DNA of 44,613 bases from Rhodocyclaceae bacterium (GTDB lineage: Bacteria > Pseudomonadota > Gammaproteobacteria > Burkholderiales > Rhodocyclaceae): positions 1-44,613 of the forward strand of contig VBWA01000025.1 in the NCBI GenBank assembly GCA_006218025.1. The letters are read 5' to 3'. The notes beneath the pieces are model-generated. The model saw only the letters and a list, made by a program, of their open reading frames with translations, was not told the DNA's origin and made no database searches. Position 1 is the stretch's first letter; the number at the start of each line of letters is the position of its first letter. The translations under genes were made by a program, and so were the position numbers. This document shows positions 11,930 to 25,727 of this stretch, one piece after another.

Positions 11930-14725
11930 CTATCCGCCAGATGCGCCCGCATCCGGCATTTCGGCATGAGTCGCCGCATATCGCGCCGGAATGCCGGCAC
12001 AAACGAACAGGTCGAACAGGTCCGGATCGAGATGCCGGCGATGTGCCATGTCTGCCATGATGGCGAGCGCCTCATCCGCCGATTTGCCCGCCTTGTAGGG
12101 GCGATCGGTCGCCGTCAGGGCCTCGAAGACATCGGCAACGGCAATGATGCGCGCTGCCAGCGACAGGTCTTCCGCCTGCTTGCCGTAGGGGTAGCCGCTG
12201 CCATCGAGGTGTTCGTGATGCCCGCCCGCGGTTTCCGGCACGGATGAGAGTTCGGGCGGGAACGGCAGGGTGGAGAGCATGGCGATCGTTCCCAGGATGT
12301 GGGCATTGATCAGATAGCGCTCTTCGGGGGTCAGCGTGCCGCTCCTGACGCTGAGGCAATGCAACTCGCCCAGATTGAGGCGATGTCGCGGCTGCGGCAT
12401 GTGCTTGCGAACTTCCTGCGCGACGCTCCTGTCGTTCTCCGGACAATCGCCGACCAGATGCTCCAGCCGATCCGCCAGCAAGTGTTCGCGTGCGGGCAAG
12501 GCCCGTGGCGGTACGCTGGCCTTGAGTTGAAGTTCCAGTTCGGAGATGCCGATGCGGTCATCGAAGGTACGCAGCCAGACTCGACTCCCGAGGTGCACCA
12601 GGCGGGCGATGTCCTCGTCGTCAAGTGCGCGCTCGCCCAGATTGCAGGCGGCGACAAAGGCGTAGTCGGCGTCAAGCGCCTGCCGGGTTTCATCCAGTTC
12701 ACGCTGCAAGAGCGCAGCATCCTTGCCTTGGGCCGCGCCGCGCCAGTAGGCAATTTCCGCATCGCGTTTGAGAACCTCGAAGCGGGTGCGGATTTCATGG
12801 ATGCGGTTGTGAACGGATTCGAGCTTGACGGACTTGTCGGTGACGTAATCCGGCACGAACAGCTTGCCGCAATCGTGCAGCCACGCCGCCAGGTGGAGCG
12901 CTTCGCGGGCGTTTTCTTCCAATGGAGCGTCGCGATAGGGGCTTGCGGGATGCGTTGCCGTGGCTTCGGCAAGCATGGCCACCAGTTCCGGCACGCGCTG
13001 ACAGTGGCCGCTGGTATAGGGAGAACGCGCATCGATGGCGCCGGCGATCATGCGGATCACCCCGTCCAGCAGCGCCTGGCGGCCTGCCAGCAGGCTTTGC
13101 CGTTCGATGGTGATGGCCATCGTGCCCGACAAGGCATCGATAAAGGAGACCAGGTCCTGATCATAGGGACCGCTCTGCGCGCCACGCACCAGTAGCAGGA
13201 GCCCGAGTTTGTCGCCGGATCGGTTGCGCAGGGGCACCATCAGCACGTGAATGGATTGTCCGGGAAACCAGGCGCCCAGCCATTCGAGGCCCGGCGGCAA
13301 GTGGCCGGCCGAGACGGCGATCTGGGAGGGATTCGGGCGGACAAGCGCCGTGTTGAAGAATGGATTCGTTTGCGTCGAGACGACTTGCGGCGACACCGGC
13401 GCCTTGCCCCCCATCCAGCGCCACGCCATTGGTTGCAATTGTTGATTCTGCTCGAAAAGGTAGACCGTGCCGCCGCCGGCATTCGCGGCTGCGATTGTCT
13501 CGGCGACGATTTCTTCAAGGAGTTGGTCATAGTGACGTTCCGCGGCGAGGCGGGCTGAAATGTCCAGAAAGCGCTGGATGGTGACGCGCATCTGATGCAT
13601 CGCCTGGGACAGGCCATCGACTTCACGGACAAGCGAACGCGGGCTCTCGCCTGAAAAACGAAAGGCCCGGACGGCGGCAGCCGTATCTGCCAGTCGCCGT
13701 AGCGAGTCGGTGATGCGGCGGGAAATCCACCAGATCAGCGGCACCATTAGTCCAAGGCCGAGCAACGTGGTCAGCAGAGTCTTTTGCAGGATCTGATTGG
13801 CGCCGACGAGCACTTCCTCGTGTGGAGCGGCCATGACCATGAGGGTCGCGATTCCAGGGGCGATCTCGCTGGACTGGGCCAGTGTTTGCCAGCGCTTTCC
13901 ATCGACCTCCAGAGTGACGATCTCGGCGCGGATCGGTTGGCCGACAGCCGCGGCCAGGATGGGCAGGTCCATGCTCGCAAGCGTCGCACCCGGCGACCGG
14001 TTTGCCGCGTCAGGCCAGGCACCATGGGATGCGGCGAGCAGAGCACCTGTGGTGTTCAGCATCGCCAACTGCGTCGATGGAGTGGCGCGCAGTCGCGACA
14101 GTATTGCCGAGAGGTTCTTCAGGCTAAGGCTGGCCCGCACGATCACGCTGCCATCGGCTGCGGCGTGGCTGACCTGCAGGCTGGGGCTGCTGTCCGGGAT
14201 CGGCGCCGCCGGCAAGACGCGCGGCGTGCCAATCGGTACCAGCCCGGCATCGAAATAGTGAACAATGTTTCCCTGCGCTTGCACCTGATCGAGCCGATAC
14301 GCGGCTTGTGCCGGTGCGCCAGCCCGACGGCGGGCTTCCGCGTGGGCCAGGGGCATCAGCGTCAGTTGGCCGGCATGCTTGCGCTCGACCGCAATCAAGG
14401 AGATGGCGGGACTGCTTTCCAGCAGGCGGGCGAGCATGGCCAGATTGTGCTTCGGAGGCGGGGTCTCCCGGAGTGTGGTAGCCAGCAGCGCTATCTGTGC
14501 CTGGACCGGAAGATAGGTCGCCGCCAGTTCGGACTGGCTTTCCCGCAGCGACCTGGCGAAGACGTCCGATACTGCCGTCAGCAGCAGGTGACGGTATTGG
14601 GTATATGCGATCGCGCCGATGGCGCCGCCGACCAGCAGCGTGACCAATGAAAACAGCGCGGCCGTCAGAACGTGGAAAGGATAGGTACGTCGCATCGACT
14701 TCGGCGAATCTGCAGGGAAAAACAT
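11930..14725 (-). CDS. Membrane HD-GYP phosphodiesterase with cache-like and GAF domains
   Basis: A 931-residue protein: N-terminal membrane helix near 16-40, a large extracytoplasmic sensor region to about 305, a second helix (TLLTTLLGLGLMVPLIWW), a HAMP-like linker with R/L-rich helices, a GAF domain near 385-540, and a C-terminal HD-GYP domain. The catalytic HD is H617-D618 (LHDCGK) and the GYP motif is G844-Y845-P846 (HLDGSGYP), both intact, so c-di-GMP hydrolysis is plausible. HD and GYP are normally about 60-70 residues apart; here about 225 separate them because a helical block (HEIRTRFEVLKRDAEI, and on to ASVPPRALPAREH) is inserted. Transcribed divergently from the next GGDEF gene. 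Confidence 0.88.
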   Translation of the reverse strand: MFFPADSPKSMRRTYPFHVLTAALFSLVTLLVGGAIGAIAYTQYRHLLLTAVSDVFARSLRESQSELAATYLPVQAQIALLATTLRETPPPKHNLAMLARLLESSPAISLIAVERKHAGQLTLMPLAHAEARRRAGAPAQAAYRLDQVQAQGNIVHYFDAGLVPIGTPRVLPAAPIPDSSPSLQVSHAAADGSVIVRASLSLKNLSAILSRLRATPSTQLAMLNTTGALLAASHGAWPDAANRSPGATLASMDLPILAAAVGQPIRAEIVTLEVDGKRWQTLAQSSEIAPGIATLMVMAAPHEEVLVGANQILQKTLLTTLLGLGLMVPLIWWISRRITDSLRRLADTAAAVRAFRFSGESPRSLVREVDGLSQAMHQMRVTIQRFLDISARLAAERHYDQLLEEIVAETIAAANAGGGTVYLFEQNQQLQPMAWRWMGGKAPVSPQVVSTQTNPFFNTALVRPNPSQIAVSAGHLPPGLEWLGAWFPGQSIHVLMVPLRNRSGDKLGLLLLVRGAQSGPYDQDLVSFIDALSGTMAITIERQSLLAGRQALLDGVIRMIAGAIDARSPYTSGHCQRVPELVAMLAEATATHPASPYRDAPLEENAREALHLAAWLHDCGKLFVPDYVTDKSVKLESVHNRIHEIRTRFEVLKRDAEIAYWRGAAQGKDAALLQRELDETRQALDADYAFVAACNLGERALDDEDIARLVHLGSRVWLRTFDDRIGISELELQLKASVPPRALPAREHLLADRLEHLVGDCPENDRSVAQEVRKHMPQPRHRLNLGELHCLSVRSGTLTPEERYLINAHILGTIAMLSTLPFPPELSSVPETAGGHHEHLDGSGYPYGKQAEDLSLAARIIAVADVFEALTATDRPYKAGKSADEALAIMADMAHRRHLDPDLFDLFVCAGIPARYAATHAEMPDAGASGG

Positions 14726-14927
14726 GCACGCGCCGGCTCCGGAACCGAATTCGCGCTGGCGAGAGAATCACCTTAGCGCGGGTTGGTTGCGGTGTCGTTA
14801 CGGTGCAAAGGATTCATCAAGCCTTCATCCGCCTGCAATGGATGCAGCGGATAGTCGGTCGAACGGTCTTGTCGGTTGGATACCCTGAGGGTTCCCGATC
14901 GGAACCGATATCCAGCGTCCTCAAACC
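14726..14927. promoter_or_regulatory. Divergent control region with two dyads
   Basis: Between the HD-GYP gene and the GGDDF gene lie a hairpin formed by ATCCG-CTGCA (14827-14837, one bulged C) and TGCAG-CGGAT (14843-14852), and a perfect inverted repeat GGTTCC-CGATC-GGAACC at 14890-14906, 21 bases before the ATG at 14928. The second could be an operator for the GGDDF gene. No standard promoter was identified. Confidence 0.4.
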
Positions 14928-16754
14928 ATGAAACAGTCAAAGCCCTTCTTGCCGATACCGGAAGGTTGTGATACCTGCGGACAGACATTGGCGGCGATTC
15001 TGGCGGAAAATGGCAAGGCTGTCGGCTCGGAATTCTCGCTGACGCCGCGTTACCGCCCGGTAGCCGATCTGGCCAGCGGCGCCATTTTTGGCCATCTGGC
15101 CAGTATTCACGGCCCACCGGAAAAATTGCTGTTCGCGCCCGCGCGCCTGTTTCGAATGGCGAGTCGACTCGGAAGAACAGCCAAGTTTGTCGATCTGTAT
15201 TTCCGGACGGTCGTGGAGCGCTTCGTCCTCGATCACGGACAGGGTTATCTGCTGCTGCCCCTGTTCGATGGCGCCGGCGATCTCGGTGAAGTCTGCATCG
15301 ACATGCTGGCCGATGCCACCAGGAATGCAGCGCTGTCCGCCGAACGCGTCATCGTGGTGCATGCCGGCGTCGGCATCCTTGACGGCGACAGGCTCGAGCG
15401 CTCGTTGGCAGCCGCTCGTGCCGTGCGCCGTTCGGGCTACATGCTTGCCTCCGGCTGCCTCAACTGTGCGCGCTCGGAAAAGCTGCTGTGGTCGGCGCTT
15501 AAGCCAGAGTTTGCGATGATCGAGGATGGAGTACTGGAAGGCTTCGATCCCAACCTGTTGCGCTTCGGTCAATTCGCCCAAATGATGGCCGCGACCGACG
15601 CACGGGGCAGTCGCGTGATCGCCCAAGGGGTCGATTCGCCGGCCTTGCTCAAGGTCTTGCGGGAAATCAAGGTGACGGGCGCATCGGGCGACTTTATCGG
15701 CAAGCCGGTGACGGTGCCGACTCATACGCTCTCGGCGGCGGCACACAAGTCGCTCGTGGGCGAAGCGCCAGGATATACCAGCCAGCACCAGGGCGGTCAC
15801 CGCCTCCATGTTCTCGAAAAGATGTTGCAGAACACTCCACCCGTCACCCCGGAAACGCTGGCCGACGAAGTCTTTGCCATGTTCGAGCGCACCCCGGATC
15901 TGCGCGCCGTTGCCATTGTGAAAAAGGACACGCCGATCGGCTTGATCGCCCGCTACGACATGGTGGACAACATGGCACGTCCCTATCGGCACGAGCTCTA
16001 TGGACGCAAGCCTTGCACGCGCTTCATGGACAAGGAGCCCTTGACGGTCGATATTCATCTGCCTCTGTCAGAGGTGTCCGAGGTCTTGGTGCACGCGCAT
16101 CCGCGCCACTTGATCAGCGGTTTCATCATTACCGACGCCGGCCGCTATCTGGGTATCGGATCGGTGCAGGACTTGGTGCGCGAGGTAGCCTTGATGCAGA
16201 TGGAGGCGGCCAAGTATGCCAATCCGCTCACCCTGCTGCCGGGGAACGTGCCGATCAACCAGTACATCGACAGCCTGCTGGTGGCGGGGGAACCCTGCGC
16301 CATCGCCTATTGCGATCTGGATCATTTCAAGCCTTTCAACGATGTTTATGGCTACGCGCGCGGCGATGATGTCATCCGGCTGACCGCGCGCATCCTCGCA
16401 GAAGTGTGCGACTCGGAAACCGACTTCGTCGGCCATATCGGCGGCGACGATTTCGTGCTGGTGCTTCGCGGCGAGGACTGGCAGGCGCGCTGCGAACAGG
16501 CGCTGAGGATGTTCGGCGAGGAGATTCTCGGCTTCTTTTCGCACGACGACATCGAGCGCGGCGGCTATGTCACGGAAAATCGCAAGGGTCTGATGGAATT
16601 CCATGCCCTGACATCGCTGTCGATCGGCGTTACCGAGGTCAAGCCCGGAGCCTTTCACTCGCACCTCGACGTATCGGTGGTGGCTGCCGAAGTAAAAAGG
16701 AAGGCCAAGGGCATTCAGGGCAACAGCCTGTATGTCAACCGGCGCACATACTGA
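14928..16754 (+). CDS. Degenerate EAL-CBS-GGDDF signalling protein
   Basis: A 608-residue cytoplasmic protein. Residues about 35-260 resemble an EAL fold without its catalytic residues: the EAL position reads IFGHLA, and ELTES and DDFG are absent, so phosphodiesterase activity is unlikely. About 290-420 is a CBS-pair-like region (LRAVAIVKKDTPIGLIARYD, then HLISGFIITDAGRYLGIG). The C-terminal cyclase-like domain has GGDDF at 505-509 in place of GG(D/E)EF, and no RxxD inhibitory site. GGDDF is seen in some EAL-CBS-GGDEF proteins; whether it is active cannot be told. The N-terminal CDTCGQ is a possible redox or metal pair. No good ribosome binding site is seen before 14928. Confidence 0.82.
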   Translation: MKQSKPFLPIPEGCDTCGQTLAAILAENGKAVGSEFSLTPRYRPVADLASGAIFGHLASIHGPPEKLLFAPARLFRMASRLGRTAKFVDLYFRTVVERFVLDHGQGYLLLPLFDGAGDLGEVCIDMLADATRNAALSAERVIVVHAGVGILDGDRLERSLAAARAVRRSGYMLASGCLNCARSEKLLWSALKPEFAMIEDGVLEGFDPNLLRFGQFAQMMAATDARGSRVIAQGVDSPALLKVLREIKVTGASGDFIGKPVTVPTHTLSAAAHKSLVGEAPGYTSQHQGGHRLHVLEKMLQNTPPVTPETLADEVFAMFERTPDLRAVAIVKKDTPIGLIARYDMVDNMARPYRHELYGRKPCTRFMDKEPLTVDIHLPLSEVSEVLVHAHPRHLISGFIITDAGRYLGIGSVQDLVREVALMQMEAAKYANPLTLLPGNVPINQYIDSLLVAGEPCAIAYCDLDHFKPFNDVYGYARGDDVIRLTARILAEVCDSETDFVGHIGGDDFVLVLRGEDWQARCEQALRMFGEEILGFFSHDDIERGGYVTENRKGLMEFHALTSLSIGVTEVKPGAFHSHLDVSVVAAEVKRKAKGIQGNSLYVNRRTY

Positions 16755-16964: not shown

Positions 16965-17978
16965 TTACGTTGCCGCCAGCGCCTCCGGGGCATCGCGCGC
17001 GGCAAGATCGGCTCCGGTCCAGCGCCAGGCTTCTTCCAGGCTGTCGCTTGCCAGTCCGCCCAGCATGATGCGGATGCGTCCGCCGTCCGGCAGGGCGCGG
17101 ATCGCCTCGATCGCCGCACGTGCTGCCGGCAATTGCTGCGTCATGGAGACCGACAGGCCGACCAGTTCCGGCCTGAACGCGTTTACCATACCGGGCAGGG
17201 AAGCCGCCGGAACGTCGGCGCCAAGATTGAAGGCAGCCCAGCCGTCGATCTCGAAGGCATCCGCCAGCGTGCGCATGCCGAGCGCGTGGCGGTTGCCTTC
17301 GACGCAGGCGAACAGCGCGCTGCGTTGCCGGCGCGGCTTGCGCGCGGCGTGGGTGAAGGCATTGTCCACGGCGCGGTGGGCGATCTCGGTGGCGAGGTGC
17401 TCCTGCGCCACGCTGATGCGTCCCGTCTGCCACCACCAGCCGATGCGCCACATCGCCGGCCGCACAACTCGCGCCACTACATTCGGCAGCCAAGTCCCGC
17501 GAGCGCAGTCGAGCAATTGCGCTCGCGCGCCGTCGCCGTCGCCAGCCAGCAGGGTTGCGGCCAGGGTTTCCGCCGCCGGGTCGAGGCCGGCCGGCTCCTG
17601 TGCATAGTTCGGCACATCCTCGTCGCTGTCGAGTGCGCGGATCCCCGCCTCGATCAGATCGAGCACCGCCTGCCGCTTGTCATGCGGCAGGGTCTCCCCC
17701 AAAAAGCCCGCCAGATAGTGCAGAGCGCGTGCCAGATCATGCCCCGGCAGGCCTCGCCCCTGCAGGAGGTGGCTGAGCCATTGGACGTAGTGGCGAAACG
17801 CCGCCTCGCTGCCGAAATCCACCGCCACCGCCAGCAATTCCACATGCGCCTGCGTGTCCTGGTGGCAGAACGCGCTTCCCCGCTCGCCCAGCGCCATGTC
17901 GTGACTTCCCCTGTCTGCAGCCAAGGCGGCGACGACATGCTCCGCGGCGGCGGCGGCCAGTCGTCGCAGTTCCGTCAC
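16965..17978 (-). CDS. Cobalamin-binding protein with CarH-like W-x9-EH motif
   Basis: A 337-residue soluble protein. About 135-210 is the helical B12-binding cap domain and about 220-330 the Rossmann-type B12 domain. H231 in GNRHALG matches the axial-ligand HxxG; GLSVSMTQ (274-281) and MLGGLA (305-310) match the other cobalamin-pocket loops. W183 and E193-H194 form W-x9-EH, the motif that caps adenosylcobalamin in the photoreceptor CarH. There is no MerR-type DNA-binding domain; the N-terminal 130 residues are an unrecognised helical region with AFCHQDTQAHVELLA. The gene follows two coupled histidine kinases, 91 bases after the second. It may be a light or B12 sensor acting through them, which is inference. 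Confidence 0.85.
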   Translation of the reverse strand: MTELRRLAAAAAEHVVAALAADRGSHDMALGERGSAFCHQDTQAHVELLAVAVDFGSEAAFRHYVQWLSHLLQGRGLPGHDLARALHYLAGFLGETLPHDKRQAVLDLIEAGIRALDSDEDVPNYAQEPAGLDPAAETLAATLLAGDGDGARAQLLDCARGTWLPNVVARVVRPAMWRIGWWWQTGRISVAQEHLATEIAHRAVDNAFTHAARKPRRQRSALFACVEGNRHALGMRTLADAFEIDGWAAFNLGADVPAASLPGMVNAFRPELVGLSVSMTQQLPAARAAIEAIRALPDGGRIRIMLGGLASDSLEEAWRWTGADLAARDAPEALAAT

Positions 17979-18069
17979 CGTGGCTGTGGTCGAATTGTTC
18001 AGGATCTCACTCCGCGACGCGTATCAAGGCCGAGATCATGTTGCGGGGCGAGTTGCCGCCGTCGGAACC

Positions 18070-20442
18070 CTAGTCCAGCACGAAATAGAAGGTCGCACCC
18101 TTGCCCTTTTCGGCCGCCGCCCAGACGCGGCCGCCGTGACGAGCGATGATTCGTGCGACGGTAGCCAGGCCGATGCCGGTGCCGGGGAAGTCGTCGGCGT
18201 GATGCAGGCGGCTGAAGGGTCGGAACAGCCGATCGGCGAAGGCCATGTCGAAGCCGGCGCCGTTGTCGCGGACGAAATATGCCCGCTCATTCGAGGGCAG
18301 CTGCATCAAGCCGAACTCGATTTCCGCCTGCGGCGAGCGCGAGGAGTACTTCCATGCATTCGTCAGCAGGTTCTGCATCAGCACCCGTAGCAGGCCGGGG
18401 TCGCCACGGGCGGCCAAGCCGGGCGCCACCGTCAGGCGCATCTGCCTTTGCGGCTCGGCTGCGGCCAGCTCGGCGCCGATTTTGGCGGCGAGGGCGGTGA
18501 GATCGACGGTGCTCGTCCTCATTTCCAGACTGGAAATTTGTGCCAGGCGGATCATGTCCTCGATGAGGCCGCCCATGCGCTGCGCCGCGTCGCGGATGCG
18601 CTCCAGGTAGCCGCGGCAGTCTTCGCTCAGCACGGGGCCGCATTCCTCGTCCAGCGCGTGGGCGAAGCCCTCGATGGAGCGCAGCGGCGCACGCAGGTCG
18701 TGCGATACGGAATAGCTGAAGCTCTGCAGATCGCGGTTGGCGGCTTCCAGGTCGCGGGTGCGCTCGTCCACCCGTCGCTCCAGGTTATCCATCATGCGCA
18801 GCAGCGCCTCTTCAGCAGCCTGCTTTTCGACGCGCAGGCGCAGCGTCTCGATGCCGCGACCGACGTCGCCCGCCAGTTCCTCCAGCAGGCTGGCTTCCTC
18901 TTGGTCGAAGACGCCGAACTCGTCGCACGCCAGCACCAGCGCTCCCCAGACGCGCCCCCCGACGCGCACCGGCAGGCCGATCACGGTCTCGAAGCCGACG
19001 GCCTTGGCCAAGGCGTGACAAGCTCCATAGTGAGCTCCCTGGCGCACGTCGTGGATGACGCAGGTATGGCCTTCGCGGACGGCGACTCCGGCGGCGCAGC
19101 GGCCGTGTTCGTTGTCGCCCCAGGACAGCGCGATGCTCTCGCGCCAGTTCGCCGGCATTCCCTGTTGCGCGACGACCGTGAGCGGCCGGTCGATGCCCTC
19201 GTCGGCGCGGGCGACAAAGGCCACCACGCTGCCGCTCTGGCGTGCGATGACCAGGCACAGGTCGTCGAACAGGGTCTGTTCGTCCTCGGCATGGACAATG
19301 GCGTCCTTCACCGTGGTCAGCATGCGCAACGCACGGTTGGCGCGCAGCAGCGATTCGCGCGAGCGCTCCAGGTCGTGTTCGCGCGTTTCTATTCTTTCCG
19401 CCATTTCGTCGAAGCTGGCGGCGAGCCGGCCGATCTCGTCGTTGCCGTGCGGCAGGTCGGTGCGCGCCGAGAGCTGCGCCCTGCCCAAGCGTTCGGCGAC
19501 CTCGCGCAGTTCGCGCACCGGCCGCAGCACCATGCGACCACCCTCCCACCAGATGACGGCGAACAGCGCCAGCACAGTGCAGAAGACCAGCAGCGTGCCG
19601 CCGAGGAAATCGCGCAGCACCGCTTCGCTGGCCGAGCTTTTCGGCGCGGCGACCCAGAGATAGCTGCGTCCGCCCAGATCCTGGTTCAGCGGGCGGGCAA
19701 CAAAAATGCGCTCGACGCCGTCGATGCCGACCTCCTCGAAGCTCTTCGGCGCAGTGATGCCGTGGACGTGTTTGAAGACCGGGTGATCGGCTATCGACCT
19801 GCCGAGCCAGCGTTCGGGCGCCAGCACCGTGCCCTGGCCGTCGACCACGACGATGTTGGTGTCCTCGGCCGCAGGCACGTTGGCCAGCGCGCGCCCCATC
19901 CAGCCCAGATCGATCCCCAGCATCAGCACCGCGCGTGTCTTGCCGCTTTTGTCGCGCAGGGGCAAGGCCATGGCGACCGCAGGCTTCTTGCTGGTCTTGC
20001 CGATGAGATAGTTGCTGACCACCATGCGCCCATTTGACATGACGTCGCGGAACCAGTCGCGGTCGGCCACCGACGCTGGCGGCGCCTCGGAGGAGGAATT
20101 GAGGATGTCGCCGGCAGGCGAAAAAATGTTGATGATCGTCAAGTAGGGATTGTCCGCGACGGCTTGCTTCAGCACCGCATGGCAGGTCGCCGCGTCTTTC
20201 GCATCGACGACGGCGTGTGTCGCCGCCAAACTGTGCAGCAGCTGCCGGCCAAGGGTGAAGGGCAGCGCCTGTTCGCGCGCCAGCAACTCGGCAAGGTGCG
20301 CGGTGCGGGTGCGTTCCCGCGCGATCTTCTCCTCGGTATTGATCCAGCCAACGTAGACCATCAACAGCAGCACGGGCAGCAGGGCCACTGCTGCAAGAAT
20401 CAGCATGCGTCGGGTTAGCCCCCTGATTTGAACGGATGTCAT
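18070..20442 (-). CDS. Membrane sensor histidine kinase (dCache-HAMP-GAF-HisKA)
   Basis: A 790-residue kinase. Transmembrane helices at about 12-33 and 280-299 bracket a double-Cache-like sensor domain (DRDWFRDVMSNGRMVVSNYL near 128). HAMP follows at 300-355, a GAF domain at about 370-535, then HisKA with phospho-acceptor H581 (FSYSVSHDLRAPLRSIEGF) and an HATPase_c domain with N box LLTNAWKYS, G1 VRDNGAGFD and G2 GTGIGLATV. The kinase core is of the type also found in phytochromes. The start overlaps the stop of the preceding kinase as ATGA, so the two are co-translated. No receiver is attached; its partner may be one of the orphan receivers across the divergent promoter. Confidence 0.9.
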   Translation of the reverse strand: MTSVQIRGLTRRMLILAAVALLPVLLLMVYVGWINTEEKIARERTRTAHLAELLAREQALPFTLGRQLLHSLAATHAVVDAKDAATCHAVLKQAVADNPYLTIINIFSPAGDILNSSSEAPPASVADRDWFRDVMSNGRMVVSNYLIGKTSKKPAVAMALPLRDKSGKTRAVLMLGIDLGWMGRALANVPAAEDTNIVVVDGQGTVLAPERWLGRSIADHPVFKHVHGITAPKSFEEVGIDGVERIFVARPLNQDLGGRSYLWVAAPKSSASEAVLRDFLGGTLLVFCTVLALFAVIWWEGGRMVLRPVRELREVAERLGRAQLSARTDLPHGNDEIGRLAASFDEMAERIETREHDLERSRESLLRANRALRMLTTVKDAIVHAEDEQTLFDDLCLVIARQSGSVVAFVARADEGIDRPLTVVAQQGMPANWRESIALSWGDNEHGRCAAGVAVREGHTCVIHDVRQGAHYGACHALAKAVGFETVIGLPVRVGGRVWGALVLACDEFGVFDQEEASLLEELAGDVGRGIETLRLRVEKQAAEEALLRMMDNLERRVDERTRDLEAANRDLQSFSYSVSHDLRAPLRSIEGFAHALDEECGPVLSEDCRGYLERIRDAAQRMGGLIEDMIRLAQISSLEMRTSTVDLTALAAKIGAELAAAEPQRQMRLTVAPGLAARGDPGLLRVLMQNLLTNAWKYSSRSPQAEIEFGLMQLPSNERAYFVRDNGAGFDMAFADRLFRPFSRLHHADDFPGTGIGLATVARIIARHGGRVWAAAEKGKGATFYFVLD

Positions 20443-22403
20443 GGCGCCTTCTGCGTTTCGCTCTCGCGCCCATTTTGCGCGAAAACGGAAAGCTCTGCGT
20501 CGGATGGCGATTCAGGCAGTTCGAAATAGAACCTCGCGCCTTGCTCCGGCTCGCCCTCGGCCCAGATGCGCCCGCCGTGCAGGTCGATGACGCGCTTGGC
20601 GGTGGCCAGACCGATGCCCTTGCCCGCGAAGCGGCCCGCCGCGTGCAGGCTCTGAAAAGGGCGGAACAGCCTGTCGGCGTAGTCCATGCTGAAGCCGGCG
20701 CCGTTGTCGCCGACCATCAGTACTTGCGCGCCGTCCTGCCCGGCATGAGCGAAGACGATGCGCGCCGGATCACGGTCGATGGAGAACTTCCAGGCGTTGT
20801 CGAGCAGGCTTTCGACGGCGATGCGCAGCAGCCGCGGATCGCCGTGGACGACGATGCTTTCATCCACCTCTGTCTCGACGCGGCGGCCGGGCTCGCGGCG
20901 CGCCATGCCATCGAGAATTTCGCGCGCCATGTGGCCGATGTGCACCGGCTGCGCCATGAGCTCCACCTGGCTGATGCGGCCCAGTTCGAGCAGGTTGTCG
21001 ATCAACTCGCCCATGCGCACGGCGGCGGCCTGGATGCGTCGCAGGTAATCGGGCAGCTCGCCCTTCAGCGCGCTGCCGCCTTCTTCCTCGACGGCCTGGG
21101 CGAAGCCGAGGATGGCGCGCAGCGGCGTACGCAAATCGTGAGAGACGGAATGGCTGAAGGCCTGCAGCTCGCGGTTGGCGGCTTCGATCTGCTGCGTCCG
21201 TGCGGCGACGCGCTGCTCGAGGTCGAGGTTGAGCATTGCCAGTGCCTGTTCGCCCCGTTTTCTGGCCGTGATGTCCTCCTTGACGGCAACGTAATGGGTG
21301 ATCTGCCCGGTCGCGTCGAGAACGGGCGAAATCTGCGTGTTTTCCCAGAACAGTTCGCCGTCTTTCCTGCGGTTGAGCAGTTCGCCGCGCCAAACTTGTC
21401 CGCTCGAGATCGTTTGCCATAGATTGCGGTAAGTCTCCGGCAAAGTCTGGCCGGATTTGAGCAGGCTCGGCCGGCGTCCGAGCGCATCTTCGCGCGTGTA
21501 GCCGGACACTTCCGTGAAGCGCGGGTTGACGTATTCGATCGTGGCCGTACGGTCGGTGATGATGACCGACGCCGGACTGTGCTCGATGGCCTCGGTCAGC
21601 TTGCGCAGTTCGCTTTCCTTGCGGCGGATGTCGTCGAGATCGGCGGCGATGAGCTTGATGTGATCTTCGGTTTCCTCTGCCATGTGGTCGAAGGCCTCTG
21701 CCAGGCTGCCGATCTCGTCCTGCGAGCGGAAGCCGCTGCGCACGCCGTAGTCGCCGCGGGCGAAGCGCAGGGTGGCGCCGGACAACTCGCGCAGCGGCCG
21801 CGCGATGCGGCGGCGGATGTAGATAAAGGCGAAGATCAGGATGGCGGCATCGACCAGGGCGAGGCGGGCAATATCGCCGCGGGTTTTTTCCTGCAGGCGC
21901 GTGACGTCGTCGCTCAACGCCCAGGTGGCGCGGTTTGCGTGTTCGAGCAGCTTGTCGGCCTGCGCCGTGAGCTGGCGCACCCCGGCTTCGAGATTGACGG
22001 CCATCGTGCCGCTTCCCAGCAAGCGCCGCACCGCGTCGCGGTAGGCCGGCCATTCGTCGCTCACCGCCGCCAGCTCGTCGCGCGCCTGACCGTCGACCGC
22101 TTCGACATGGCGGCGGCCCTGCAGGGTTTGCAGCTTGGTTTCGAACTCGCCGAGCAGGGGCTCGATCCTGCCGGCATCGGCGCCTTCGGCCACTTCATGC
22201 AGGGTCAGCTGGATTTTCTGGCTGAGATAACGCAGGCTGCCATAAAGGTTGATGTCGGCGGCGGCGCCGTCCAGCTGGGCCAGGGCGCGATTCACCACCA
22301 GCCAGCTTCCGATGCCGGCCAGCGCCAGTCCCAGAAACAGCAGGAAAACTTTGGTGCCGATATTCAGGTGCCATCCCGCGGCGGGCGGGGGGGTGACAGG
22401 CAT
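20439..22403 (-). CDS. Sensor histidine kinase with PilJ/NarX-type sensor and PAS domain
   Basis: A 654-residue kinase. Helices at about 18-38 and 180-197 flank a helical-bundle sensor containing INLYGSLRYLSQKIQLTLHE, the signature of the PilJ/NarX N-terminal domain. HAMP spans about 198-250, a PAS domain 265-385 (ITDRTATIEYVNPRFTEVSG) with its PAC tail, then HisKA with H422 ([16 protein letters not shown]) and HATPase_c with N box LLDNAWKFS, G1 GDNGAGFSM and G2 GKGIGLATA. ATG at 22403 has GAGGAG 9 bases upstream and was preferred to an in-frame start 51 bases earlier. First gene of the kinase-kinase-cobalamin operon. Confidence 0.9.
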   Translation of the reverse strand: MPVTPPPAAGWHLNIGTKVFLLFLGLALAGIGSWLVVNRALAQLDGAAADINLYGSLRYLSQKIQLTLHEVAEGADAGRIEPLLGEFETKLQTLQGRRHVEAVDGQARDELAAVSDEWPAYRDAVRRLLGSGTMAVNLEAGVRQLTAQADKLLEHANRATWALSDDVTRLQEKTRGDIARLALVDAAILIFAFIYIRRRIARPLRELSGATLRFARGDYGVRSGFRSQDEIGSLAEAFDHMAEETEDHIKLIAADLDDIRRKESELRKLTEAIEHSPASVIITDRTATIEYVNPRFTEVSGYTREDALGRRPSLLKSGQTLPETYRNLWQTISSGQVWRGELLNRRKDGELFWENTQISPVLDATGQITHYVAVKEDITARKRGEQALAMLNLDLEQRVAARTQQIEAANRELQAFSHSVSHDLRTPLRAILGFAQAVEEEGGSALKGELPDYLRRIQAAAVRMGELIDNLLELGRISQVELMAQPVHIGHMAREILDGMARREPGRRVETEVDESIVVHGDPRLLRIAVESLLDNAWKFSIDRDPARIVFAHAGQDGAQVLMVGDNGAGFSMDYADRLFRPFQSLHAAGRFAGKGIGLATAKRVIDLHGGRIWAEGEPEQGARFYFELPESPSDAELSVFAQNGRESETQKAP

Positions 22404-22572: not shown

Positions 22573-22704
22573 ATGCGTCATCAGGATTTTCCTGATGACG
22601 GGCGGCTCGGACCGGCGGTGATCCGCCTTTGTTTCTTGATCGCGGGATCATTCCGGCATATGCTGGGTCGTCACCCTTACCGCGATCCGGGTCTGCCCGA
22701 ATGA
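22573..22704 (+). CDS. Short leader ORF coupled to the receiver-kinase gene
   Basis: A 43-codon frame starting MRHQDFPDDGRLG. It has the best ribosome binding site of the neighbourhood (AGGAGG, 7 bases before the ATG), and its TGA overlaps the ATG of the next gene as ATGA, while that gene has no Shine-Dalgarno of its own. This makes translational coupling likely. The peptide has no recognised family. Codons 2 to 9 are made from a perfect 11-bp inverted repeat, so the leader may be regulatory. Whether the peptide itself matters cannot be told. Confidence 0.5.
   Translation: MRHQDFPDDGRLGPAVIRLCFLIAGSFRHMLGRHPYRDPGLPE
22576..22600. promoter_or_regulatory. Inverted repeat / possible operator, site A
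   Basis: CGTCATCAGGA, TTT, TCCTGATGACG: an 11-bp perfect stem. Its core ATCAGGATTTTCCTGAT (22580-22596) differs at one base from the 17-bp palindrome at 25774-25790 before a second regulator gene. It could be a DNA operator shared by both promoters or an RNA hairpin just after the leader start codon. Confidence 0.6.
22649..22659 (+). repeat. Shared 11-bp word, copy A
   Basis: CATTCCGGCAT, present again at 25853-25863. In both places it lies 61-71 bases downstream of the centre of the 17-bp palindrome and just before a receiver gene. Confidence 0.45.
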
Positions 22705-23819
22705 ACAGCGAAGCCAGCAACAGCATCCTGGTGGTGGACGACCTTCCGGAAAACCGCCGCCTTTATTCCGTCATCCTGCGCGAGGCCGGCTGCGACGTGA
22801 TCGAAGCCGCCAGCGGCGAGGAGGCGCTGGAAGTCTGCAAGCAGCGCGAATACTCGATGATCCTGATGGACGTGCATCTGCCCGGCCTTGACGGCTTCGA
22901 GACCGCGCGGCGCATCCGCGAGTTCCCCTGCTGCGGCAGCACCCCGATCGTCTTCGTCTCCGCCGTGTACACCAGCGACAGCGACCGCTACAAGGGCTAC
23001 GGCGAGGGTGCCGTCGATTACCTGCTGGCGCCGGTGGTGCCGGAGGTGCTGCGCGCCAAGGCCAAAGTCTTCGAGGAGATCTACTGGCGCCGCAAGGAAG
23101 TCGAGGAGTTCGCCCGTCTCATGGAGCGGCAGAACCGCCAGCTGCGCGCCGCCTGCGACGAACTGGAAGCCTTCAGCTACGCCGCCGCGCACGATCTCAA
23201 GGCGCCGCTGCGCGCCATCGGCGGTTACGCCGACATCCTGCTGGAGGACTACCTGCCGGCCCTCGATGCGCAGGGGCGCGAGCACCTGCGGCGCATCGGC
23301 GCCGCCACCGAGCGCATGAACGCGCTGATCGACAGCCTGATGCAACTCAGCAAGATCGCGCGCAGTGACATGCACCATGAAACGGTCGAGCTCTCCGCGC
23401 TGGCGCGCAATGTCGCGGCCGAGTTGCAGCGCGACTCGCCGCGCCCGGTGGACTGGGTCATCGCGCCGGATCTCGCGGCGCAGGGCGATTCCGGCCTGCT
23501 ACGCATCCTGCTGGTCAATCTGCTCGGCAACGCCTGGAAATACACCGCGCGGCGCGACGACGCGAAAATCGAGTTCGGCCGCGCGCCGCACCAGGGGCAG
23601 CCGGCCTTTTACGTGCGCGACAACGGCATCGGCTTCGACGCAGCGAATGCCGCCGAGCAGCTATTCCAGCCCTTCCGGCGTTTTCACAGCGCCGAGGAAG
23701 CGCCCGGCAGCGGCATCGGTCTGGCTACCGTGGCCCGCATCGTCACCAAGCACGGCGGCCGCATCTGGGCGGAATCGGCAAAACAGGCCGGCGCCACCTT
23801 CTGGTTCACGCTCGGCTGA
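22701..23819 (+). CDS. Receiver-histidine kinase hybrid (REC-HisKA-HATPase)
   Basis: A 372-residue soluble protein with the receiver at the N-terminus. D57 (ILMDVHLPG) is the phospho-acceptor, with acidic D13-D14; the conserved Lys is replaced (YLLAPVV in place of the usual LxKP). After a short coiled linker comes HisKA with H164 (AHDLKAPLRAIGGY), then HATPase_c with N box LLGNAWKYT, G1 VRDNGIGFD and G2 GSGIGLATV. Such REC-first kinases often receive phosphate from another kinase and relay it. The upstream membrane kinases without receivers are candidates. ATG at 22701 is coupled to the leader ORF by an ATGA overlap. Confidence 0.9.
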   Translation: MNSEASNSILVVDDLPENRRLYSVILREAGCDVIEAASGEEALEVCKQREYSMILMDVHLPGLDGFETARRIREFPCCGSTPIVFVSAVYTSDSDRYKGYGEGAVDYLLAPVVPEVLRAKAKVFEEIYWRRKEVEEFARLMERQNRQLRAACDELEAFSYAAAHDLKAPLRAIGGYADILLEDYLPALDAQGREHLRRIGAATERMNALIDSLMQLSKIARSDMHHETVELSALARNVAAELQRDSPRPVDWVIAPDLAAQGDSGLLRILLVNLLGNAWKYTARRDDAKIEFGRAPHQGQPAFYVRDNGIGFDAANAAEQLFQPFRRFHSAEEAPGSGIGLATVARIVTKHGGRIWAESAKQAGATFWFTLG

Positions 23820-23862: not shown

Positions 23863-23927
23863 GCGCGGGGCCCTATCCCCCTCCCAAGCTCCCGCTTGAA
23901 AGGGGATGGGGTCGTCCGGCCCCGCGC
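23863..23927. repeat. Long GC-rich cruciform before a start codon
   Basis: GCGCGGGGCC (23863-23872) pairs over 10 bases with GGCCCCGCGC (23918-23927); inside it ATCCCC (23875-23880) pairs with GGGGAT (23902-23907). The outer stem ends one base before the ATG at 23929, so an RNA fold would enclose the ribosome binding region. A smaller hairpin CCGTCG-TGA-CGACGG lies at 23824-23838, just after the previous stop. Confidence 0.5.
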
Positions 23928-23928
23928 C

Positions 23929-25086
23929 ATGACCGATAAGACCGACCCGTCGGGGGCAAAGCCGTTGCGCGCGATAATCATCGAAGACGCGCCCGACGAT
24001 CTGGCCCTGCTGCTGCTGGCATTGCGCCGCGCCGGTTTCGCGCCGGACTGCGTGCACGTCCAGGGGGCGGCGGAACTGGACGCGGCCTTGCGCTCCGGCT
24101 CCTGGGACATCGTGCTGTCCGATTACACCCTGCCCGATTTTTCCGGCCTGCTGGCGCTCGCCCAGGTGAGCGCCCACGATCCCGACCTGCCCTTCATCAT
24201 CATATCCGGCAACATCGGCGAGGATGTCGCCGTGGCGGCGATGAAGGCCGGGGCCCACGACTATCTGATCAAGGGCAACCTGACGCGCCTCGGCGCCGCC
24301 GTCGAGCGCGAGCTGCGCGAGGCCGGGACGCGCCGCGCCAGCCGCCGCGACGAGGTGGCGCTGAGTCATGCCAGGCTGCGCCTGCAGGCGCTGGCCAACC
24401 GCATGCTGGAAATGCAGGAGGCCGAACGCCGCCACCTCGCACGCGAGCTGCACGACGAGATCGGTCAGTCGCTCACGGCGATCAAGCTGAACCTGGAGGC
24501 GCTTTCGCGCCGCATCGGCGATGAAACGGCGCGCCGCCTCGCCGACGAGATCGCCGCTGTCGCCGGCGAGGTGCTCGACCAGGTGCGCCGCCTTTCGCTC
24601 GACCTGCGCCCGCCGCAGCTCGACGATCTCGGCCTGCGCGCGGCCATGCACTGGCTGGTCAAGCGTCACACGCGCGAACCCGGTCCGGTTATCGAGCTTG
24701 AGGCGCAGGAGGATTTGCCGCGCCTCGGGCCTGAGACAGAGACCGCCTGCTTCCGCATCGCCCAGGAGGCGCTGACCAATATCCTGCGTCATGCCGGCGC
24801 GACCCGGGTGCGCATCGTGCTGGAAGTGGACGCGGGCCTGTTCTGCCTCGACGTCTGCGACGACGGCCGCGGCTTCGACGTCGAGGCGGCGCAGGCGCGG
24901 GCGCTCGCCGGCACCAGTCTCGGCCTGGTCGGCATGAGCGAGCGCGCGGCGCTGGCCGGCGGCGAGATCTGCCTCGTCAGCAGCGAGGGAGACGGCACGC
25001 GCCTCTCGGCGCGCTTCCCGCTCGCCGCCGCGACTTCCCTCTCCCCCGGCCCCGCCCCCGCGAAGGGGGCGGGGAGCACTCCATGA
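23929..25086 (+). CDS. Receiver-HisKA_3 histidine kinase (NarX/UhpB-type core)
   Basis: A 385-residue soluble hybrid: receiver with D65 (SDYTLPDFSG), K115 and acidic E19-D20, a helical linker, and a HisKA_3 dimerisation domain with H175 in RRHLARELHDEIGQ, followed by an HATPase_c domain (AQEALTNILRHAGA, then DDGRGF and GLVGMSERA). This core pairs with NarL/FixJ regulators; one is encoded directly downstream with an ATGA overlap, so the two form a cognate pair. The last residues ([14 protein letters not shown]) are encoded by a GC-rich hairpin rather than by family sequence. ATG at 23929 was chosen because upstream residues come from another hairpin; no clear Shine-Dalgarno is seen. Confidence 0.88.
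   Translation: MTDKTDPSGAKPLRAIIIEDAPDDLALLLLALRRAGFAPDCVHVQGAAELDAALRSGSWDIVLSDYTLPDFSGLLALAQVSAHDPDLPFIIISGNIGEDVAVAAMKAGAHDYLIKGNLTRLGAAVERELREAGTRRASRRDEVALSHARLRLQALANRMLEMQEAERRHLARELHDEIGQSLTAIKLNLEALSRRIGDETARRLADEIAAVAGEVLDQVRRLSLDLRPPQLDDLGLRAAMHWLVKRHTREPGPVIELEAQEDLPRLGPETETACFRIAQEALTNILRHAGATRVRIVLEVDAGLFCLDVCDDGRGFDVEAAQARALAGTSLGLVGMSERAALAGGEICLVSSEGDGTRLSARFPLAAATSLSPGPAPAKGAGSTP
25050..25074. repeat. GC-rich hairpin inside the 3' end of a kinase gene
   Basis: CCCCGCCCCC (25050-25059) and GGGGGCGGGG (25065-25074) form a perfect 10-bp stem with a 5-base loop. It encodes the tail of the HisKA_3 kinase and ends 8 bases before the start of the NarL-type gene, so it may modulate their coupling. 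Confidence 0.55.
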
Positions 25087-25727
25087 GACCGCTGCGCCTG
25101 CTCCTCGCCGACGACCACACCCTGGTGCGCGCCGGGCTGCGCGCGCTGCTCGACGGGATGGACGGCGTCACGGTGGTGGCCGAGGCGGACAACGGCGAGC
25201 AGGCCGTCGCCCTCGCACTGGAGCACGCGCCCGACATGGCGCTGCTCGACATCACCATGCCCGGTATCAACGGCCTGCAGGCGGCTGAGCGCATCCTCGC
25301 GATTTTGCCGCAGACGCGCGTCATCATGCTCTCCATGCACTCCGGCGAGGAGTACGTAAATCGCGCACTGGCACTCGGCGTCTCCGGTTATCTGCTGAAG
25401 GACGCCGCCACCTTCGAGCTGCGCGCGGCTCTGGAGACGGTGGCCGCCGGCCACCCCTATTTGTCTCCGCGGCTCACCAGCCAGTTGCTCGAATCGCGAG
25501 CGCGCCAGAGCGAAGGCGCGCCGAAGTCGGCGCTGACGGCACGGCAAGTCGAAGTACTTCGGCTGCTGGCGCTGGGCAGGAGCGTCAAGGAAATCGCCCA
25601 CGAGTTGCAGCTCTCGGCCAAGACGGTCGAAACCTACCGCGCCCAGATCATGGCGCGTCTCGGACTGCGCGATGTCGCCAGCCTGGTGCGCTACGCCATC
25701 CGCACCGGCCTCATCAGCGCGGAGTAG
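25083..25727 (+). CDS. NarL/FixJ-family response regulator
   Basis: A 214-residue two-domain regulator. The receiver has D10-D11, phospho-acceptor D56 ([12 protein letters not shown]) and the conserved Lys in GYLLKDA. The LuxR/NarL-type helix-turn-helix lies at about 148-205 ([22 protein letters not shown], with recognition helix near [18 protein letters not shown]). The ATG overlaps the stop of the HisKA_3 kinase as ATGA, which marks the pair as cognate. Nearby palindromes at 22580 and 25774 are candidate binding sites; this link is inference. A 15-bp perfect hairpin follows the stop. Confidence 0.93.

Follow-up and report, generated by a model that had tools for sequence, protein, structure and literature searches.

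AerR and PpaA are stand-alone cobalamin domains without a further domain, and the target of AerR is CrtJ rather than a kinase. The abstract of Schneider 2022 on photoglobin reportedly already links the photoglobin and B12 domains to signal-transduction domains of prokaryotes, and the kinase link reported here is therefore claimed without priority. Photocobilins, the photoreceptor class using B12 plus biliverdin (BV), were described in 2024; according to the available portion of that paper they are grouped by the location of the adenosylcobalamin (AdoCbl) domain at either end of the protein and have a demonstrated control over a diguanylate cyclase fused to them (PMC10979010). The accessible text of two further papers gives GxxW, EH, GxxH and GxxxP as the SignatureFinder signature of light-responsive cobalamin-binding domains (CBD) (PMC11796333) and ascribes the CXQD motif to photoglobins (PMC10151467). 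Neither PMC10979010 nor PMC11796333 uses the word "kinase" in its main text, and among the papers searched a histidine kinase came together with a photoglobin or globin, B12 and biliverdin only in a review (PMC11908464), with nothing closer. We analysed a stretch of 44,613 bp from a Rhodocyclaceae bacterium (contig VBWA01000025.1 of GCA_006218025.1), hereafter the window, in which the gene of a 337-residue photocobilin-type protein lies downstream of two histidine kinase genes, HK1 and HK2. Genomes are given as G numbers, the window genome being G000, and loci as L numbers.

A photocobilin-type protein in the window

By sequence and predicted structure, the architecture of the 337-residue protein is that of a stand-alone photocobilin in globin-first order, and its photocobilin-type identity is highly probable. 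Its features in the window are the following.

16965 to 17978, minus strand: photocobilin-type protein, photoglobin plus cobalamin-binding domain, 337 aa, GTG start, possible CTG start at 18002
17628 to 17978, minus strand: photoglobin domain of five main helices at the N-terminus, residues 1-117
17856 to 17867, minus strand: C38-H39-Q40-D41, matching the photoglobin CXQD motif; D41 aligns with SasPcob Asp270 (BV contact)
17778 to 17780, minus strand: W67, aligning with SasPcob Trp296 beside BV ring D
17364 to 17573, minus strand: helical cap, Pfam B12-binding_2
17397 to 17441, minus strand: light signature G180xxW183 ... E193-H194, with Q184 at the CarH His132 position
16974 to 17321, minus strand: Rossmann cobalamin domain, Pfam B12-binding
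17286 to 17297, minus strand: G228xxH231, H231 being the expected lower axial cobalt ligand
17208 to 17222, minus strand: GADVP, the GxxxP part of the light signature

Pfam recognised B12-binding_2 in residues 136-205 (3.1e-10) and B12-binding in residues 220-335 (3.6e-15), and no MerR/HTH or other DNA-binding family at E <= 0.001. All elements of the light-responsive CBD signature were present. The marks of a photocobilin were found as well: a CarH-like AdoCbl domain with W-x9-EH and the lower His, a five-helix photoglobin/bilin globin fused to it, and equivalents of Asp270 and Trp296, which are named as BV contacts in the available text on SasPcob (PMC10979010). The equivalence of D41 and W67 to these residues comes from alignments, in which the numbering shift of 6 was counted by eye. 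Because cobalamin domains took up all the results when the whole protein was searched by fold against the PDB, the globin was modelled and searched separately.

An earlier note on this DNA had described a CarH-like sensor. Its reading of the B12 pocket (H231-x-x-G234), of W183-x9-E193-H194 and of the missing MerR-type domain is borne out, and a cobalamin domain with the light signature but no recognised DNA-binding domain is indeed what we see. However, the protein is more than a CarH that lacks one domain: the N-terminal ~120 residues, overlooked there, are a predicted photoglobin, giving the globin-B12 arrangement described for photocobilins in the accessible part of PMC10979010. Translation may begin eight codons ahead of the GTG, at a CTG (18002-18000) whose counterpart in the 86% identical sibling of G028 is ATG, with the same GGAG preceding both. 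The distance from the HK2 stop to the GTG is 91 bp, and the HK2-to-start spacing is 67 bp to the window CTG versus 66 bp to the G028 ATG.

Nineteen full-length proteins, including the window's own, were compared. Seven places came from the window's own genome and 200 relatives, nine from 369 genomes of the class and three from 398 of the phylum, and 48 genomes of the class of G669 added no further full-length photocobilin. G778 (photocobilin over two frames), G645 and B12-only matches, including those of G085, G094 and G140, were excluded ahead of the count, and G554 was retained but is doubtful, its N-terminus being unrecognised by the globin profile and its branch very long. W67, W183, E193, H194 and H231 were each kept in all 19 proteins, P257 in 18, and D41 and G228 each in 14, with His in place of D41 in the three copies of G565. 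An AdoCbl-based light response is likely.

The kinase locus and its relatives

The genes next to the photocobilin gene are the following.

18070 to 20442, minus strand: HK2, with dCache, HAMP, GAF, HisKA and HATPase_c, 790 aa
20439 to 22454, minus strand: HK1, with PilJ-like, HAMP, PAS, HisKA and HATPase_c, 671 aa; the start may instead be the ATG at 22403
22704 to 23819, plus strand: RRHK, a divergent receiver-HisKA-HATPase_c hybrid
23917 to 25086, plus strand: RRHK3, a receiver-HisKA_3-HATPase_c hybrid
25083 to 25727, plus strand: NarL/GacA-type response regulator, receiver plus LuxR HTH

HK1 and HK2 overlap by ATGA, with the photocobilin gene downstream of both, and their H, N, G1 and G2 boxes are complete, in agreement with the earlier claim of two coupled kinases. 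The internal ATG at 22403, the end coordinate given in the earlier note, falls on residue 18 when HK1 is read in its longest frame and is a plausible start, since the match in G010 begins at that residue too.

Of the 19 full-length proteins, 10 are encoded next to a histidine kinase gene on the same strand (9/18 without the window's own), with an overlap or a gap of <20 bp in seven (G025, G037 twice, G010, G231, G375 and G382). The remaining linked rows are G000 and G028, each with the upstream pair, and G669, with 187 bp between the photocobilin and kinase genes. G231 and G375 have two kinases each, and G025 has kinases on both sides, the upstream one only with the long frame. HATPase_c was confirmed by Pfam for the neighbour kinases of all linked rows but G028, where identity to HK1 and HK2 is 87% and 82%. 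In G642, a possible eleventh case, the next gene bears a domain here called A6 and is cut by the contig end. If the chance of having a kinase neighbour is guessed at 6%, 10/19 would give p ~3e-8, a figure that serves as a guide only, as the rows are related. In the tree, the group that includes the window protein (G000, G028, G101, G025 and G037 twice) is kinase-linked in 5/6 and a second group (G382, G010, G231 and G375) in 4/4, and tree support is mixed: 5/16 inner branches are starred, and 16/500 label shuffles needed equally few changes.

G028 keeps the order HK1-HK2-photocobilin near RRHK3-NarL, as in G000, where RRHK lies between. The divergent RRHK3-NarL pair is the element common to the four loci compared (G000, G028, G101 and G010), to which the comparison of this pair was confined. 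RRHK (22629-23819) was not seen in the examined part of the G028 locus, where L031 2612-3385 holds a different short frame, possibly antitoxin-like by eye. In the window, the locus is flanked by proteins of the HD-GYP and EAL-CBS-GGDEF types, one of each (11930-16754), which places cyclic di-GMP signalling beside the candidate light-sensor genes.

Proposed mechanism and alternative readings

On balance we lean towards the photocobilin being the light input to a multi-kinase relay that works by protein contact. AdoCbl would be bound base-off, with H231 beneath the cobalt, while the adenosyl group would stack on W183 and be held by E193-H194 across the dimer. Light, green or, with a bilin in the globin, red, would split the Co-C bond and open the dimer, by analogy with SasPcob. 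The light state would be water-ligated as in SasPcob and not bis-His, which is expected because Q184 replaces CarH His132. The changed oligomer would then act by contact on the kinases of the locus, feeding RRHK3 and the NarL-type regulator; contact is proposed because no recognised DNA-binding or enzymatic domain is present. Coupling to the kinases of its own locus is plausible, about as much so as its opposite, and coupling to HK1-HK2 in particular is rather doubtful. If true, a stand-alone photocobilin wired to kinases would make a B12-based, light-controlled two-component system useful for optogenetics.

Several results weigh against this reading. Plain sequence comparison and Foldseek both placed the cobalamin part nearest to the MerR-family CtMerR (8jbs) and then to 8j2w, and the predicted model of the globin alone gave weak Foldseek E-values against the PDB, the best being 0.015. 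Heme oxygenase PF01126 was not found in the window genome (99.97% complete; other biliverdin-forming enzymes were not searched), nor in 14 of the 16 photocobilin genomes, the window's included. The two that have it, G445 and G037, are both among the 13 with >=90% completeness and <=5% contamination, and the other 3/16 fall under 90% or exceed 5%. Cobalamin adenosyltransferase PF02572 is present in the window genome and was found in only 5/16 of these genomes, other adenosyltransferase families not being searched. A scan of the locus gave no promoter-like site and 8 terminator-like sites versus 4.0 expected, and the operon is putative.

Biliverdin use is unproven because no PF01126 was found in the window genome; that the globin uses a bilin is quite possible, although we stop just short of favouring it. 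The protein could instead be an AdoCbl-only light sensor, whose globin is a structural cap no longer receiving bilin, as would largely be the case in AbPcob, which binds BV weakly according to the portion of PMC10979010 available. The heme oxygenase survey points that way, and so do the failure to find a PHY-domain phytochrome (PF00360) in the window genome and the replacement of D41 by His in the three G565 copies. However, the window protein keeps D41 and W67 and its local motif fits CXQD; a bilin may come from heme oxygenases of families other than PF01126 or from cells nearby, and some of the 16 genomes are incomplete. We take this alternative as a serious one, without preferring it, and it raises the question of whether the globin in this branch needs bilin at all.

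The relay by contact meets further objections on the side of the partners. No same-strand kinase was in view beside 8 of the 19 proteins, namely those of G101 (convergent kinase only), G509, G445, G565 three times, G554 (FtsX-type gene) and G576 (unknown gene, cut). In G101 the orthologue (71%) adjoins RRHK3-NarL without HK1-HK2, and in G010 HK1-HK2 (71% and 76%) adjoin RRHK3-NarL without an orthologue. HK1 and HK2 carry their own sensor domains, without the A6 or A8 domains seen beside several other photocobilins, and neither A6 nor A8 was found in the window genome. The photocobilin might then act on partners elsewhere, its adjacency to HK1-HK2 being an accident of a signalling-rich region, as the G101 and G010 loci and the other seven window proteins scanned by Pfam, all signalling proteins, would allow. 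Against such an accident stand the same-strand kinases of the ten linked rows, seven of them tightly spaced, and the G010 genome, in which HK1-HK2 lie ~7 kb from the sole full-length photocobilin match, a member of the other tree group with its own kinase. An accidental neighbourhood is possible, though we incline against it. The earlier proposal of signalling to the two upstream kinases holds in part: kinase adjacency exists at the level of the family, W and EH are universal among the 19 proteins and the kinase-kinase-B12 order is kept in G028, but it is not kept in G101, eight of the proteins show no same-strand kinase and dedication to HK1-HK2 is weak.

HK1-HK2 and the photocobilin are each found without the other beside RRHK3-NarL, so that, judged from gene order in four genomes, they look like separable inputs to that pair. 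A bolder version, which we consider unlikely as a whole, would have the photocobilin as a detachable light input: it and the membrane sensors HK1-HK2 would be alternative or combined inputs to one RRHK3-NarL output, integrating light and periplasmic signals by contact and using AdoCbl without self-made bilin, and in other Pseudomonadota the class would drive kinases via PAS-like partner domains.

That the protein senses cobalamin availability and not light, the kinases reading the apo versus the holo state, is improbable: the published light signature is present, W, E, H and H are kept in 19/19 proteins, and photocobilins and CtMerR are placed above corrinoid carriers in the VIA table. A corrinoid methyltransferase subunit of the MtaC/MtbC type, hinted at by weak NCBIfam scores of 39 bits for MtbC and 33 bits for pyl_corrinoid, was rejected, as these scores are far below the curated cut-offs (350 and 215), the protein has both the globin domain and the W/EH light residues, and no methyltransferase occurs among the eight window proteins scanned.

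Partner domains and recombined forms

A6, PAS-like by eye and without Pfam match, heads genes beside five photocobilins (G231, G375, G010, G669 and G642).

L070 5654-7036, L071 2015-3358, L037 8143-9459, L080 2708-4009 and L079 3-635: A6-headed genes

At 1e-8, A6 occurred in 2/369 class genomes, in both beside photocobilins, yet both are rows of the A6 profile; G642 is the case from outside it. A8, likewise PAS-like, lies in kinases beside the photocobilins of G025 and G037 (twice). As an exclusive partner of photocobilins it was rejected, being found at 15 places in 13/200 genomes: three belong to the kinases from which the profile was built, another to a GGDEF protein adjoining the globin-less B12 gene of G140, and among the other 11 no B12 gene was near any of the 8 examined. 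Beyond those 200 genomes, A8 occurred close to the G645 B12 gene and to the split photocobilin in G778.

G085 and G094 encode the globin and the B12 part in separate, consecutive genes as split photocobilins (L038 5919-7282 and L039 4445-5810), followed by a long PAS-GGDEF-EAL gene in G085 and a GGDEF-like one in G094; in G140 the globin-less B12 gene is followed by the A8-bearing GGDEF protein. Because of these split and globin-less arrangements, the photocobilin module is, on sequence grounds, one that has been recombined with several outputs.

Comparison with known systems

AerR (7TE2) and the SCHIC domain of AppA (4HEH) are without photoglobin and share 18-20% identity with the window protein; its globin sets it apart from AerR/PpaA, and the AerR sequence match reached 18.4 bits (E 0.012). 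CarH/LitR (5C8A-5C8F, 3WHP) and CtMerR (8JBS) differ in their MerR DNA-binding domain, in place of which the window protein has a globin, with no Pfam match to a MerR-type domain at 0.001, no His132 equivalent and a TransRegCarH score of 57 bits against a cut-off of 400. BBAG-2 globins with separate B12-binding proteins, as far as the available text of PMC10151467 describes them, likewise associate a bilin globin with a B12 protein, and the split forms of G085 and G094 resemble them; they differ in their separate genes, an RGMC and not a CXQD motif and an association with heme oxygenase. The photocobilins SasPcob (8J2W/8J2X) and AbDPcob (8J2Y) are alike in the CarH-type W-x9-EH cobalamin domain and the five-helix bilin-type globin, and SasPcob also in the BV-site Asp and Trp and in the Gln at the CarH His132 position, judging from the accessible part of PMC10979010. 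Compared with these known photocobilins, the window protein has its globin N-terminal and its cobalamin domain C-terminal, and is encoded within a kinase locus; worth testing are its wiring to kinases and the heme oxygenase that was not found.
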